Positions 29,442-35,221 of a DNA stretch of 64,000 nt are shown piece by piece. The position numbers and the translations under genes were made by a program. The DNA comes from Devosia sp. (GTDB lineage Bacteria; Pseudomonadota; Alphaproteobacteria; Rhizobiales; Devosiaceae). Position 1 is the stretch's first letter. Each line of letters begins with the position of its first letter. A model generated the notes under the pieces. The model was not told the DNA's origin. It did not search any database and worked only from the letters and a program-made list of their open reading frames with translations. The stretch spans positions 1,613,010 to 1,677,009 of the forward strand of contig CP051235.1 in assembly GCA_017794705.1 (NCBI GenBank). The letters run 5' to 3'.

Positions 29442-29909
29442 CTAGGCGGCAGCGATATGTTCCGCCGGGGTCGACAGCACCTCGAGCAGCCGTTCCTTGT
29501 CGCGCGTCGCGCGCAATTCATCCACCATGTGCTCTGCACGCAGGCAGCGCGCCACGCGAGACAGCGCCTTCAGGTGATCAGCGCCCGACCCTTCGGGAGC
29601 GAGCAGCATGAAGGCAATGTCGACTGGCTGATCATCAACTGCATCGAATTCAATCGGCTGGTCCAGCCGGGCGAAAATCGCCACGACATGGCCCAATCCC
29701 TTGATCTTGCCGTGCGGGATGGCAATGCCATTCCCCAGACCGGTGGAGCCAAGCTGTTCGCGGCTCATCAGGGTTTCAAATGCGCTCTGGCTGTCAATCT
29801 TGGCCACGTCGGCGGCCCTTTCGGCCAGCAACTGCAGGAGCTGGCGTTTGCTCGTGACCTTGGCGCACGGAATGATGCTATCCTTGGTCAGGATGTCTGA
29901 AAGTTCCAT
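29442..29909 (-). CDS. ptsN: PTS IIA-like nitrogen regulatory protein PtsN (EIIA-Ntr)
   Basis: PtsN is the end acceptor of the nitrogen-related PTS and regulates processes such as potassium uptake by its phosphorylation state. The 155-residue protein has the active histidine in GIAIPHGKIKG, and MELSDILTKDSIIPCAKV at the start as in rhizobial PtsN. I chose ATG 29909 because the longer frame begins in the hpf gene region with an unrelated sequence. It ends the rpoN-hpf-ptsN block. HPr and HprK of the same relay are 28 kb upstream. Confidence 0.93.
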   Translation of the reverse strand: MELSDILTKDSIIPCAKVTSKRQLLQLLAERAADVAKIDSQSAFETLMSREQLGSTGLGNGIAIPHGKIKGLGHVVAIFARLDQPIEFDAVDDQPVDIAFMLLAPEGSGADHLKALSRVARCLRAEHMVDELRATRDKERLLEVLSTPAEHIAAA

Positions 29910-29955
29910 CAATGGACCTTTGAAGTTAACTGGTTCAAGGCAATATGCTCGGCGT

Positions 29956-30525
29956 TCAATTCGTCGCCAGGGCCGGATCGATCCAGCCGATATTGCCGTC
30001 GGCGCGGCGGTAAACCACATTCATGCCGCCATGTCCAGCGTGCAAAAAGACTTGCACATCTGATTGTGTAAGATCCAGCTCCATTACTGCCTCGCCGACG
30101 CTCATGGTGCGCAGCGATGAAACGCTTTCGGCCACAATCGCGGGATTGAAATCCTCGGCGACCTCATCATCCCCTTCGGGCGAGGCCAGCACGTAGGACT
30201 GCATCTTGGCCTCGTTGGAATCGCCTTTATTGCGATGGCTCTTGAGTTTGCGCTTGTAACGGCGCAGGCGCTTTTCGATATGGTCAGCCATTTCCTCGAA
30301 CGCGGAAGTGGCGTCGCCGGCCAGAGCATGGGCGCGCAGAATCACGCCCGTATCAAGATGGATCACAACGTCGGACTTGTAGCCGGAGCCTTCATGCTCA
30401 ACGGTCAGATGGCCGTCATATCCGCCATCGAAATATTTATCGACCATCGCGTCGCAACGGTCTTCAGCCTTGGTTCGGAGCGCTTCTCCGACATCCATAT
30501 TCTTGCCCGAAACACGTAGTGCCAT
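29956..30525 (-). CDS. hpf: Ribosome hibernation promoting factor, long form
   Basis: Long HPF joins two 70S ribosomes into inactive 100S dimers in slow growth. The 189-residue protein has the N-terminal ribosome-binding domain (LRVSGKNMDVGEALRTKAED) and a separate C-terminal dimerisation domain (SVGEAVMELDLTQSDVQVF and RRADGNIGWIDP) joined by a charged linker. ATG 30525 has GGGAGGTC nine bases upstream, which decides the start. Its position just after rpoN is conserved in proteobacteria. Confidence 0.93.
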   Translation of the reverse strand: MALRVSGKNMDVGEALRTKAEDRCDAMVDKYFDGGYDGHLTVEHEGSGYKSDVVIHLDTGVILRAHALAGDATSAFEEMADHIEKRLRRYKRKLKSHRNKGDSNEAKMQSYVLASPEGDDEVAEDFNPAIVAESVSSLRTMSVGEAVMELDLTQSDVQVFLHAGHGGMNVVYRRADGNIGWIDPALATN

Positions 30526-30699
30526 TCTCTGACCTCCCGCTTTCAAAAAAGATTACCGGCGTCGAACCGAAGCTGAACCCGAGTCTAGCGCTCCGGCTCA
30601 TGCTCTTGCAATGGATATGGTGGGGGCGAGCGCCTTTTGCAAGGCTTGACAGCAGCGTGGTGCGCTAAAAATGTCTGCAAAACAACAGCTTGCCGTTTC

Positions 30700-32208
30700 T
30701 TATCCCGCAGTTGCCAACTGCTTTTTCTGCCTTCTTCGAATGACCGATGACGGGATATTCATGCCCTCGCGGTACTTGGCAACCGTGCGCCGGGCCACGT
30801 CGATTCCATGGCCCTCGTTCAGCCGCTCGGCGATCGTGTCATCGCTGAGAATCTTGCGGGGGTCCTCGGCATCGATCATCTGCCTGATCAGGTGCCGGAC
30901 AGCCTCGGCCGAATGTTCCTCGGTGCCGCCCGATGAAGAACCGAGGGCGGTGGTGAAGAAGTATTTCATCTCGAACAGGCCGCGCGGGGTGCTGAGATAT
31001 TTGTTGGCGGTCACCCGGCTGACTGTGGACTCGTGCATGTCGATGGCTTCGGCCACCATCTTCAGGGTCATCGGGCGAAGCCGGGTCACTCCGTGCTGAA
31101 GGAACCCGTCCTGCTGGCGGACGATTTCGGTTGCCACTTTCAGGATGGTCTGGGCGCGTTGATCAAGACTCTTGGTCAGCCAGTTGGCGGTCTGCAGGCA
31201 GTCGACGAGGAAATTCTTTTCCTCCGCCGAACGGGTCTTTTTGGAAACGCTGGCATAGTAGGTGCGGTTGACCAGCACCCTGGGCAGCACATCCGAATTC
31301 AGTTCCACCGCCCACGATCCGTCGGGGCGCTGGCGCACAAAAACGTCCGCGACAATCGCCTGCACGGGGGCACCGTCAAAGGCACGGCCGGGGCGCGGAT
31401 CAAGCTGGCGGATTTCCGCCAACATGTCGGTAATATCTTCCAGGGTGGCGCCGATTTTGCGGCTCAACTGCACAAAATCATGCCCCGCCAGCAGGTCGAG
31501 ATGATCCAGAAGCGCCGCCATCAGCGGGTCCAGCCGGTCGCGGTCGGCCAGTTGCAGCGCCAGGCACTCCTTCACATTCCGTGCAAAAAGCCCTGCAGGT
31601 TCACAGGCTTGAACCTTTTTCAGCACGGTTTCAACATGCTCGACATCGGTGCCCAGCTGCTCGGCGATCACTTCAAGTTCAGCCGCCAGATACCCCGCTT
31701 CATCCAGATTATCGATCAGATTTCGTGCAATCAGCCGCTCCCCGAGATCCCGGATCAGGAAGGCCACCTGCTCGTTGAGGTGATCGGTCAGCGAAATGTT
31801 GGCCGAGACATATTGGTCAAGGTCGGGGGCGTCCTCGCCGGCGCCGACCGATCCCGGCTGGCGTGACAATGTCGAGGCCCGCACTGAATCCTGGGCGACC
31901 TGTTCGGGATAGACGTTCTCAACGTCGGTATCCAATGCGCCGGCGACATTGACCGCGCTGTCCAGATGACCGCCATTGTCGACCACGTCTTCATAGGCGC
32001 TGGAAGCGGTCTCCCGAGCTTCGGGTTCGGGCGCATCGCGGTCGCCGCTCTCGTCACTCTCCAGCAGCGGATTACGCAGCAGTTCGGCCTCGACGAAACT
32101 GTTGATCTCCAGATGCGACAATTGCAGCAGCCGGATCGACTGCATCAATTGCGGCGTCAGTGTCAGGCTTTGCGCCTGTCTCAGTTCCAGTCGTGGCGAA
32201 AGCGCCAT
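30700..32208 (-). CDS. rpoN: RNA polymerase sigma-54 factor
   Basis: Sigma-54 directs transcription from -24/-12 promoters with enhancer-binding activators, in nitrogen and other responses. The 502-residue protein has the glutamine-rich activator-interaction region I (RLELRQAQSLTLTPQLMQSI), an acidic region II, the core-binding part, a helix-turn-helix (MVAEAIDMHESTVSRVTANK) and the RpoN box ARRTVAKYREGMNIPSS near the C terminus. It lies 101 bases after lptB and before hpf and ptsN, the usual order in this class. Confidence 0.97.
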   Translation of the reverse strand: MALSPRLELRQAQSLTLTPQLMQSIRLLQLSHLEINSFVEAELLRNPLLESDESGDRDAPEPEARETASSAYEDVVDNGGHLDSAVNVAGALDTDVENVYPEQVAQDSVRASTLSRQPGSVGAGEDAPDLDQYVSANISLTDHLNEQVAFLIRDLGERLIARNLIDNLDEAGYLAAELEVIAEQLGTDVEHVETVLKKVQACEPAGLFARNVKECLALQLADRDRLDPLMAALLDHLDLLAGHDFVQLSRKIGATLEDITDMLAEIRQLDPRPGRAFDGAPVQAIVADVFVRQRPDGSWAVELNSDVLPRVLVNRTYYASVSKKTRSAEEKNFLVDCLQTANWLTKSLDQRAQTILKVATEIVRQQDGFLQHGVTRLRPMTLKMVAEAIDMHESTVSRVTANKYLSTPRGLFEMKYFFTTALGSSSGGTEEHSAEAVRHLIRQMIDAEDPRKILSDDTIAERLNEGHGIDVARRTVAKYREGMNIPSSVIRRRQKKQLATAG

Positions 32209-32309: not shown

Positions 32310-33053
32310 CTAGATGGAGAACGTGTCGCCCAGATAGACCCGCCGCGCTTCGGGGTCCGAAGTGATGGTATCGGGAGTACCCTGGATCATCACCTTGCCG
32401 TCGTGGATGAGATAGGCCCGGTCGACCAGCCCCAGGGTCTCGCGCACCGAATGATCAGTCACCAGCACACCGATGTCGCGTTGAGTGAGCTGGCGGACCA
32501 GTTGCTGGATTTCGGCCACGGCAATCGGGTCAATGCCGGCGAATGGTTCGTCGAGCAGCATGATCACCGGGTCGGCGGCGAGCGCCCGGGCGATTTCGAC
32601 GCGGCGGCGTTCGCCACCCGACAGCGACAGCGCGTTGGCGTTTTTAAGATGGCTGACGGAGAATTCTGCCAACAGTTCATCCATCCGCCGCAGCCTGTCG
32701 GCCTTTTTCGGCAGATGTCCCTCGAGAATGGCCAGAATATTGTCCGCCACGCTCATGCCCCGGAAAATCGAGGGTTCCTGCGGCAGGTAACCGATGCCCA
32801 AGCGGCCACGCTGGAACAAAGGCAGATGGCCGATCGGCCGCCCGTCGAGCAGGATCTGGCCGGCGTCGGGTTTGACCAGACCCATGATCATGGTGAAGAC
32901 GGTGGTCTTGCCGGCGCCGTTCGGCCCGAGCAGGCCCACCGCCTCGCCGCGCCGGACAGCGATCGACACATTGCGCACCACGGTCCGCTTGCCGAAGCTC
33001 TTGGCCAGCCCATGGGCCACCAGCCAACCCTGTTGATCAATTCGGGACGCCAC
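32310..33053 (-). CDS. lptB: LPS export ABC transporter ATP-binding protein LptB
   Basis: LptB is the ATPase that drives LptFG to pull lipopolysaccharide from the inner membrane and push it along the LptC-LptA bridge. The 247-residue protein has Walker A GPNGAGKT, signature LSGGERRR, Walker B VIMLLDEPFAGID and the switch histidine in LVTDHSVRE. It starts 30 bases after the end of the fused lptC/lptA gene. lptF and lptG are not in the window, as is usual. Confidence 0.94.
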   Translation of the reverse strand: MASRIDQQGWLVAHGLAKSFGKRTVVRNVSIAVRRGEAVGLLGPNGAGKTTVFTMIMGLVKPDAGQILLDGRPIGHLPLFQRGRLGIGYLPQEPSIFRGMSVADNILAILEGHLPKKADRLRRMDELLAEFSVSHLKNANALSLSGGERRRVEIARALAADPVIMLLDEPFAGIDPIAVAEIQQLVRQLTQRDIGVLVTDHSVRETLGLVDRAYLIHDGKVMIQGTPDTITSDPEARRVYLGDTFSI

Positions 33054-33083: not shown

Positions 33084-34517
33084 TTACTGGGTTTGCGGCG
33101 GATTGTCCGGCGAAAACACGCCGGTTACCCTGCTTCCGTCACCAGGCCCGGAAAATTCGAATACATTGGTAGCAAGGTTTACCCTGAGCTCAGGCGCACT
33201 GACGGTGCCGCCGGCATTGGTCACCCGCACATCGCCGGTCAGCCGAAGATAGCGGGTATCCGGATCATATATGCCGCGATTTCCCGTGGCACTCTGATCC
33301 TGGCTGCGCACGCGAACTGAACCCAGCATTTCATAATAGGCAATCTGGTTCGGATTTTCCGGCTGGTAGTGCACGATGAAGCGGTCCGTAGATACGGTCT
33401 GATCGGCCATGCGGATCACGGCATTGCCGGAAAACTCGGTCCGGTTGTCTTCCCGCAGATCCAGCAGCCTGTTGGCCTCGATCCGGGTCCGGTCGGCGCC
33501 CGGCGGGCTGAAATCGCCTGTAACGCGATTGCCACCCTGACCGGTGAAAGAACTCGAACCGGCAGCGATGTCGATGGACAGCTGGTCCGCGGAAATCGCG
33601 CCCTCTTCGCCGGTCACACGCACATTGCCGGTCAGATTCATGGTCTCCGTGACCGGGTCATAGACCCCGCGATCACCGGTTGCAGTCTGCCCGCCGGAAC
33701 GCACATTGACGGCGCCGTTGGCCTCGACCCGCTCAAATTCGGCGCTGTCGCCTTGAGCGAACTGAACTGCAAGCGTGTTCGCCTCTACAACGGTCTGGTC
33801 CTGTTCCGCCCGGGCGTTGCCGGTGAATGCCGCGGTGCCGGCATTTGCATCATAGTTCAACTGGTCGGCAGTGATCCGGGTTGCCGCATCCTCTTCGGTC
33901 GCCGGACGGTCAAACTGGGCCGAGGCGAAGCGCCAGACTTCATCTTCGGCGGAATAGGTGAGCCGTTCAGACAGGATCTGCCCGCCATCGGGGAAGTCGA
34001 TCCGAACCGGTCCTTGCGACACCATTGACTGGTTCTGCCAGTCGATCTGCGTGCTGTAGAGCTCGGCCCGGACGCCGGAACTGTCGAGTGTGGTCAGCTC
34101 GCCGTCGATCGTCACGGTCTGGGCGCGCACATCGATGATGGCGAAGGGCGCCACGCCTTCCATGCGGCTATCGTTCTGGCCAACGGTCGTGATGGTGGCT
34201 GACTGAAGCTCGATCAATTCGGGATTGTCCATGGCCACCCGCGCCTCTGCCGCGGCGACCTCATAGCTGTTGTTGTCGCCGAACTGCCCCCCATAGCGCG
34301 GGTCGGCGATAACCACCCGGCCATCCTCGATGGTCAGGCCCTCGATCGTGTAGTTGCTGCCGAGGTTGGCGATGACGATTTCAAAGATCAGGCCCGCCGC
34401 AAGAGCCAACCCGGCAATGGGCACCGCCCAGCGTAGAAGGCCAATGATGCGGTTGCGCCGGTCGAGTTTGCCGTAGATCAGCGCCCGCCGGTCGAACCTG
34501 TCCGCGGTGACCGCCAT
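33084..34517 (-). CDS. Fused LptC-LptA-LptA lipopolysaccharide transport protein
   Basis: A single frame of 477 residues replaces the separate lptC and lptA genes usually found before lptB. Residues 1-24 are basic and cytoplasmic, 25-50 form one membrane helix, and about 55-200 are an LptC-type domain (NYTIEGLTIEDGRVVIADPR). Two LptA/OstA-type repeats follow, about 213-325 and 340-470. The repeats resemble each other: ATGDRGVYDPVTETMNLTG and ATGNRGIYDPDTRYLRLTG are aligned copies. No second signal peptide or internal ribosome site is evident between domains. It should span much of the periplasm as a tethered bridge for LPS. Its start overlaps the RNase D-like stop by one base. Confidence 0.82.
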   Translation of the reverse strand: MAVTADRFDRRALIYGKLDRRNRIIGLLRWAVPIAGLALAAGLIFEIVIANLGSNYTIEGLTIEDGRVVIADPRYGGQFGDNNSYEVAAAEARVAMDNPELIELQSATITTVGQNDSRMEGVAPFAIIDVRAQTVTIDGELTTLDSSGVRAELYSTQIDWQNQSMVSQGPVRIDFPDGGQILSERLTYSAEDEVWRFASAQFDRPATEEDAATRITADQLNYDANAGTAAFTGNARAEQDQTVVEANTLAVQFAQGDSAEFERVEANGAVNVRSGGQTATGDRGVYDPVTETMNLTGNVRVTGEEGAISADQLSIDIAAGSSSFTGQGGNRVTGDFSPPGADRTRIEANRLLDLREDNRTEFSGNAVIRMADQTVSTDRFIVHYQPENPNQIAYYEMLGSVRVRSQDQSATGNRGIYDPDTRYLRLTGDVRVTNAGGTVSAPELRVNLATNVFEFSGPGDGSRVTGVFSPDNPPQTQ

Positions 34518-35131
34518 CAGCTATGGGCGAAAATGTCGGTCTCTTCCCAACCCGCCAAATCGAGGGCAACCCGGGTCGGCAGAAACTCGAAACAGGCGCG
34601 CGCCAGTTCCTCGCGCCCTTCACGCATCAGCATCAGGTCGAGATGCCGCTTGATGTCGTGCAGATAAAGGACATCGGAAGCCGCATATTCAAGCTGCGCC
34701 TGACTGAGTTCATCGCTGCCCCAGTCTGAACTTTGCTGCTGTTTGGACATGTCGACATTGATCAGTTCGCGCGCCAGATCCTTCAAGCCATGCCGGTCGG
34801 TGTAGGTGCGCACCAGCTTCGAGGCGATCTTGGTGCAATAGACGGGGCCGGTGACGACATCGAACCGGTTCAGCAGCGCGGCAATATCGAAGCGGGCATA
34901 GTGGAAAATTTTTGTGACGTTCGGATCGGTCAGCAGCTTCTTGAGGTTGGGCGCGTCGTCGGCGTTCTTGGGGATGCGCACCACGTCGGCGTTGCCGTCT
35001 CCCGGCGACAGTTGCACCACGCACAGCCGGTCGCGCCGGGTGCTGAGGCCCATGGTTTCCGTATCGATGGCCACCTCGCGTCCATAGGCGGAAAGATCGG
35101 GCAAATCGCCCACATGCTGGCGGATGGTCAT
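34517..35131 (-). CDS. Ribonuclease D-like 3'-5' exonuclease
   Basis: A 204-residue DEDDy exonuclease consisting only of the catalytic domain, without the HRDC domains of full-length RNase D. Exo I is AIDTETMG, exo II is FHYARFDIAAL and exo III is YAASDVLYLHDI. Such short forms stand before lptC in many alphaproteobacteria and are thought to trim RNA 3' ends. ATG 35131 is preceded by GAGGAACT; the frame opens 45 bases earlier. The stop overlaps the lptC/A start (TGATG), giving coupled translation. Confidence 0.88.
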   Translation of the reverse strand: MTIRQHVGDLPDLSAYGREVAIDTETMGLSTRRDRLCVVQLSPGDGNADVVRIPKNADDAPNLKKLLTDPNVTKIFHYARFDIAALLNRFDVVTGPVYCTKIASKLVRTYTDRHGLKDLARELINVDMSKQQQSSDWGSDELSQAQLEYAASDVLYLHDIKRHLDLMLMREGREELARACFEFLPTRVALDLAGWEETDIFAHS

Positions 35132-35221
35132 CAGTTCCTCAAGATTCAGGCAAATCGAAATCCTGTGATGCCACACGCATGGGGCAAAGGGAAGGCAGCA
35201 GCCAGCGCGGGCAGATCGCCG

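Follow-up and report, generated by a model that had tools for sequence, protein, structure and literature searches.

In described Lpt systems, the periplasmic bridge runs head to tail from LptC through LptA to LptD (PMC10863985, PMC10094684), and reviews and primary papers give as unknown how many LptA molecules make up a bridge (PMC7237710, PMC10094684, PMC10863985). Published estimates allot about 4 nm to each LptA and 15–16 nm to a bridge with one LptA (PMC10863985, PMC5575297), and a periplasm of 21 nm has been quoted (PMC5575297). A monomeric LptA mutant of E. coli sustains growth at least partly (PMC5575297), so polymerisation is not strictly required even in that organism.

We analysed a 64,000-nucleotide stretch of the Devosia sp. 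genome GCA_017794705.1 (contig CP051235.1, positions 1,613,010 to 1,677,009), referred to here as the window. In it, a single gene of 477 codons without internal stop encodes an LptC-like part and two LptA domains, LptA1 and LptA2 (Table 1). Its ATG overlaps the stop codon of the upstream gene (TGATG), and lptB starts 30 bases 3′ of its end. The local order, rnd-like exonuclease, [lptC-lptA], lptB, rpoN, hpf and ptsN, is the usual one in Alphaproteobacteria, and the LptC part lies upstream of both lptA and lptB, as fits LptC. A preliminary description, made from the sequence alone, had read this frame as an LptC-like anchor and domain followed by two LptA repeats; Pfam and TIGR matches, comparison with relatives and predicted folds all bore it out. 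Our reading, to which we assign a probability of roughly 0.8, is that the protein naturally unites the middle section of the LPS bridge in a single chain of one LptC and two LptA that arose within Devosiaceae.

Table 1. Positions of the fusion gene, its parts and the neighbouring genes in the window
Feature	Position	Strand	Evidence
lptC-lptA-lptA fusion gene	33084..34517	-	open frame, Pfam and NCBIfam matches
Predicted membrane anchor helix of LptC part, residues 8 to about 52–54	34362..34496	-	AlphaFold2 models; hydropathy peak 2.3, residues 34–50
LptC-like periplasmic beta domain, residues 58–205	33903..34346	-	190 bits, profile of neighbouring LptC proteins; best solved matches LptC 6mit_C (Z 16.7) and 6mjp_C (Z 16.1)
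LptC/LptA1 joint, 12 residues	33888..33923	-	lacks the stop, start and signal peptide seen in relatives
LptA1 domain, residues 211–340	33498..33887	-	PF03968, 62 bits; E. coli LptA 2r1a_C, Z 16.3, rmsd 1.8 over 126 residues
LptA1/LptA2 joint, 4 residues	33486..33497	-	
LptA2 domain, residues 345–472	33102..33485	-	PF03968, 53.5 bits; Devosiaceae LptA profile, 192.6 bits; LptA 7zax, Z 12.8
lptB, ATPase of Lpt transporter, next downstream gene	32310..33053	-	Pfam ABC_tran; 78% identity to nearest named LptB
rnd-like 3′-5′ exonuclease, upstream	34517..35176	-	stop overlaps fusion start
rpoN (sigma-54), within conserved gene order	30700..32208	-	
hpf, ribosome hibernation factor	29956..30546	-	
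ptsN, EIIA-Ntr	29442..30020	-	

The two LptA domains were recognised directly. PF03968 (LptD_N) matched the whole protein over two stretches with 105.4 bits (cut-off 20.4), both domains lying above the cut-off, and the TIGR03002 LptA model, whose cut-off is 71.7 bits, scored the whole protein at 95.4. That the repeats are aligned copies of each other, as proposed earlier, held up on quantification: they share 38.6% identity over 132 aligned residues, and their alignment score of 215 compares with a best of 50 among 500 shuffles. At about four times the best shuffle, the repeat is far beyond chance. In the AlphaFold2 model LptA2 has nine strands, each of which starts exactly 131 residues after its LptA1 counterpart. 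Both predicted domains adopt the LptA beta-taco fold, LptA1 resembling the E. coli protein most closely and LptA2 that of K. pneumoniae (7zax, rmsd 3.8 over 123 residues). Structural matches to MORN, CPAP and OspA were set aside, as we took these for beta-repeat look-alikes.

At the invariant columns of the family alignment, LptA1 retains the residues shared by all LptA proteins of the family (F, G, YDP and RVTG.F), which argues for LptA-type constraint on both units. This bears on whether one LptA domain, probably LptA2 as the orthologue of the family LptA, suffices for LPS while LptA1 only lengthens the bridge. LptA1 does form the longer branch in the LptA tree (1.34 versus 0.9) and has no clear sister, yet besides keeping the family-invariant residues it exceeds the Pfam cut-off and has the best match to a solved LptA (Z 16.3). 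Since LPS must traverse every unit of a head-to-tail bridge, such a spacer would moreover still conduct, and we regard this account as very unlikely.

The identity of the N-terminal part was less direct. LptC matches reported for the whole protein were at first taken to mark an LptC domain, and were dropped when they vanished on scanning residues 1–207 alone, which matched neither Pfam PF06835 nor TIGR04409. The same residues align with the genes that immediately precede lptA in relatives, the nearest being 42% identical, and PF06835 matches 12 of the 19 LptC relatives in the alignment. A single N-terminal membrane helix is predicted, followed by a beta domain (pLDDT 89, AlphaFold2). The four best solved matches to the predicted fold are all LptC chains, with Z from 16.7 to 14.2, and LptA comes next at 13.5. 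A profile of the LptC relatives found nothing meaningful among PDB sequences, and the sequence similarity of this part to LptA1 and LptA2 was insignificant (Z 2.2 and -0.2). Residues 1–207 are thus LptC-like judging by relatives, gene order, membrane helix and predicted fold; the Pfam and TIGR models do not pick them up directly. Two relatives (L005 and L034) have separate LptC genes that these models likewise miss. Together with the LptC part described here (window 33897–34517), these are Devosiaceae LptC sequences that escape the LptC models of Pfam and NCBIfam alike, so that automatic annotation may miss lptC in this family.

Comparison with 55 Devosiaceae loci showed how the two reading frames are joined. 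In these loci 104–275 nt (median 140) separate the end of the LptC domain from the start of the LptA domain; in the fusion gene the distance is 36 nt. What the relatives encode there, a stop for lptC, a start for lptA and the signal peptide of LptA, is missing rather than frame-shifted, some 70–100 nt being gone, and neither alternative frame across the joint contains a start with a signal peptide. No stop codon was therefore overlooked near residue 200, a point that the preliminary description had marked for checking. Because the signal-peptide region itself is absent, a sequencing or assembly error that fused two genes cannot explain the frame. The genome is a single contig of 3,307,379 bases, the frame is open with a normal codon pattern throughout, and independent fusions occur in other lineages (see below); against these points stands an estimated genome completeness of 93% and nothing else, and we consider an artefact hardly credible. 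The fused LptA units also have no signal peptide of their own that would direct separate secretion: the joints contain no hydrophobic stretch, and the region is deleted relative to the 55 family loci. They are accordingly LptA domains and not stand-alone LptA proteins.

The whole-protein AlphaFold2 model, built on a 59-sequence alignment, shows a single long helix followed by three beta modules (mean pLDDT 85, pTM 0.64), in agreement with the tandem LptA folds anticipated from the sequence. The pTM value leaves it uncertain how the three modules are placed relative to one another; a groove continuous through all three is likely. Both joints are short, without low-complexity linker or hydrophobic stretch. 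These features also bear on the possibility that the chain is cut after export, freeing LptA or an LptA-LptA dimer and restoring the usual separate working parts. Proteases of the periplasm could cleave at the joints, and model confidence falls to about 70 at the one between LptA1 and LptA2, but the joints of only 12 and 4 residues offer neither a low-complexity linker nor a hydrophobic stretch of the kind seen by signal peptidase, and pLDDT is near 90 between LptC and LptA1. Cleavage is in our estimate unlikely, and we infer that the chain remains in one piece, conveys LPS and sets the number of LptA in the bridge at two.

Nothing else in the genome appears to supply a free LptA. A genome-wide PF03968 search returned the two fused domains and LptD only. 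A more sensitive profile, built from 14 LptA sequences, hit the fused domains with E values of 5.5e-57 and 8.8e-36; its one further hit was LptD (0.005). The absence of a separate lptA, which the preliminary description had left to a complete-genome search, was thus confirmed in the single-contig genome by both Pfam and the Devosiaceae LptA profile. LptB, LptF, LptG and LptD are all encoded, lptB inside the window and the two LptF/LptG genes next to lptD at 743–746 kb. On this gene inventory, the fusion is most likely the only bridge by which the organism's LPS crosses the periplasm, with a hard-wired ratio of one LptC to two LptA.

The earlier description had implied that such a fusion is rare, and this was true only within the family. 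The fusion was found in 1 of 136 Devosiaceae genomes, its neighbours having separate lptC and lptA; among the matches listed, the other genomes gave no second case of two LptA domains per frame, and a search with the whole fusion protein found no named relative. In one genome (G096) the LptA matches were all weak or broken, and two others had no LptA match, of which one is 55% complete and the other contaminated. G018, which an open-frame figure had suggested as a further fusion, was rejected since its ORFs are separate (L016).

Similar fusions do occur elsewhere in Alphaproteobacteria, the scope of our survey, for which about 900 genomes were sampled. At the level of the order we examined nine genomes of family f2 (Hyphomicrobiaceae, assigned by comparison with named loci), members of f3, f8 and f31, and the named loci L040, L041, L044, L059, L073, L075 and L085. 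Nearly all of these cases have LptC-LptA-LptA in one frame of 560–740 residues; for G399 we detected no LptC part in frame with LptA. In L153, a 641-residue LptC-LptA fusion, about 100 residues lie between recognisable LptA pieces. Some genera of f31 (L150, L167, L168 and L169) have a separate LptC and a two-domain LptA, and genus g124 (L151, L152, L158 and L160) has the full fusion, which suggests this family as a place to seek fusion or fission in progress. Across the class, four genomes of one small-genome family carry LptC-LptA with a single LptA, and stand-alone LptA-LptA occurs in many other genomes. The single-LptA proteins (L177, L178, L180 and L181) come from genomes of 1.1–1.5 Mb, have 334–354 residues with a short joint, and constitute a third form of the fusion, probably independent. 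Some Bradyrhizobium genomes and family f50 have two separate, adjacent lptA genes beside lptC and lptB, each with its own signal-peptide-like start (L051:2136-3436, L070:2163-3364 and L144).

Phylogenetic analysis placed the Devosia fusion apart from these proteins. Both of its LptA domains fall within the Devosiaceae group (support 99/96), LptA2 adjoining the LptA of the Devosiaceae genus g12. In the LptC tree the fusion adjoins the same genus, whose lptC and lptA are separate. The other fusions group on their own side of a branch, with support of 99/96 for the LptA domains and 100 for LptC, rows of no group being uncounted. The position of the domains inside Devosiaceae in both trees indicates an independent origin, and hence convergence: as judged from these trees, the fusion arose independently inside the family. 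Acquisition of the fused gene from the Hyphomicrobiaceae group, whose proteins have an identical order and number of domains, is exceedingly improbable, given that LptC and LptA2 nest with genus g12, that LptA1 lies inside Devosiaceae apart from the other fusions, and that linker lengths differ. An origin within Devosiaceae would have involved the fusion of lptC and lptA into one frame, whereby the stop and the LptA signal peptide were lost, and duplication of the LptA domain as well. Forcing LptA1 and LptA2 to be sisters cost 11 log-likelihood units and was not rejected (p-AU 0.114), so tandem duplication in the Devosia lineage is possible.

Based on these results, the N-terminal helix would anchor the chain in the inner membrane and dock on LptF/LptG as ordinary LptC does, and the domains would follow one another as the separate proteins do in known bridges. 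With this order preserved, two protein-protein contacts would be replaced by peptide bonds, and with no free LptA encoded, each bridge should hold one LptC and two LptA. The fusion's addition would be a fixed LptA count and a permanent anchor, and the need for LptA oligomers would be removed and the bridge length fixed, as the preliminary description had suggested. By arithmetic on the published estimates rather than by measurement, a two-LptA bridge would span about 19–20 nm, to be set against the quoted 21 nm of periplasm. We think it rather probable that this organism has a near-seamless LPS bridge with a genetically fixed composition of one LptC and two LptA, at which more than one alphaproteobacterial lineage arrived independently. 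If so, two LptA per bridge would be a working, selected number, and free LptA exchange or polymerisation would be dispensable. A natural fixed-count chain without free LptA would make the number of bridge units directly testable, and would give structural work a single protein for a bridge whose assembly is otherwise difficult. Our search of the open literature, which had partial coverage, found no description of natural LptC-LptA fusions.

Compared with the Lpt system of E. coli and others (3my2, 6mit and 2r1a), the Devosia protein is alike in folds, bridge order and gene neighbourhood, with lptB next; it differs in that E. coli has a separate LptC and a secreted, self-associating LptA (PMC7237710, PMC10094684), whereas Devosia has one chain with two LptA and no LptA signal peptide. 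The tandem LptA-LptA proteins of many Alphaproteobacteria (L065, L113, L179 and L182–L186) share two LptA per chain beside lptC and lptB, but their lptC is a separate gene. In L177, L178, L180 and L181, LptC is likewise joined to LptA by a short joint and without signal peptide; these belong to a distant lineage and have one LptA domain. In the proteins of Hyphomicrobiaceae and allied families (the seven named loci above, L148, L151 and L158), LptC is followed by two LptA in one frame as in Devosia. These are longer, with linkers of mostly 27–48 residues as opposed to 12 and 4 in the 477-residue Devosia protein, and by the tree have a separate origin; those of Hyphomicrobiaceae also carry long C-terminal tails. 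Within the known Lpt system, the Devosia fusion is an independently evolved, nearly linker-free version of a fusion that recurs among Alphaproteobacteria.
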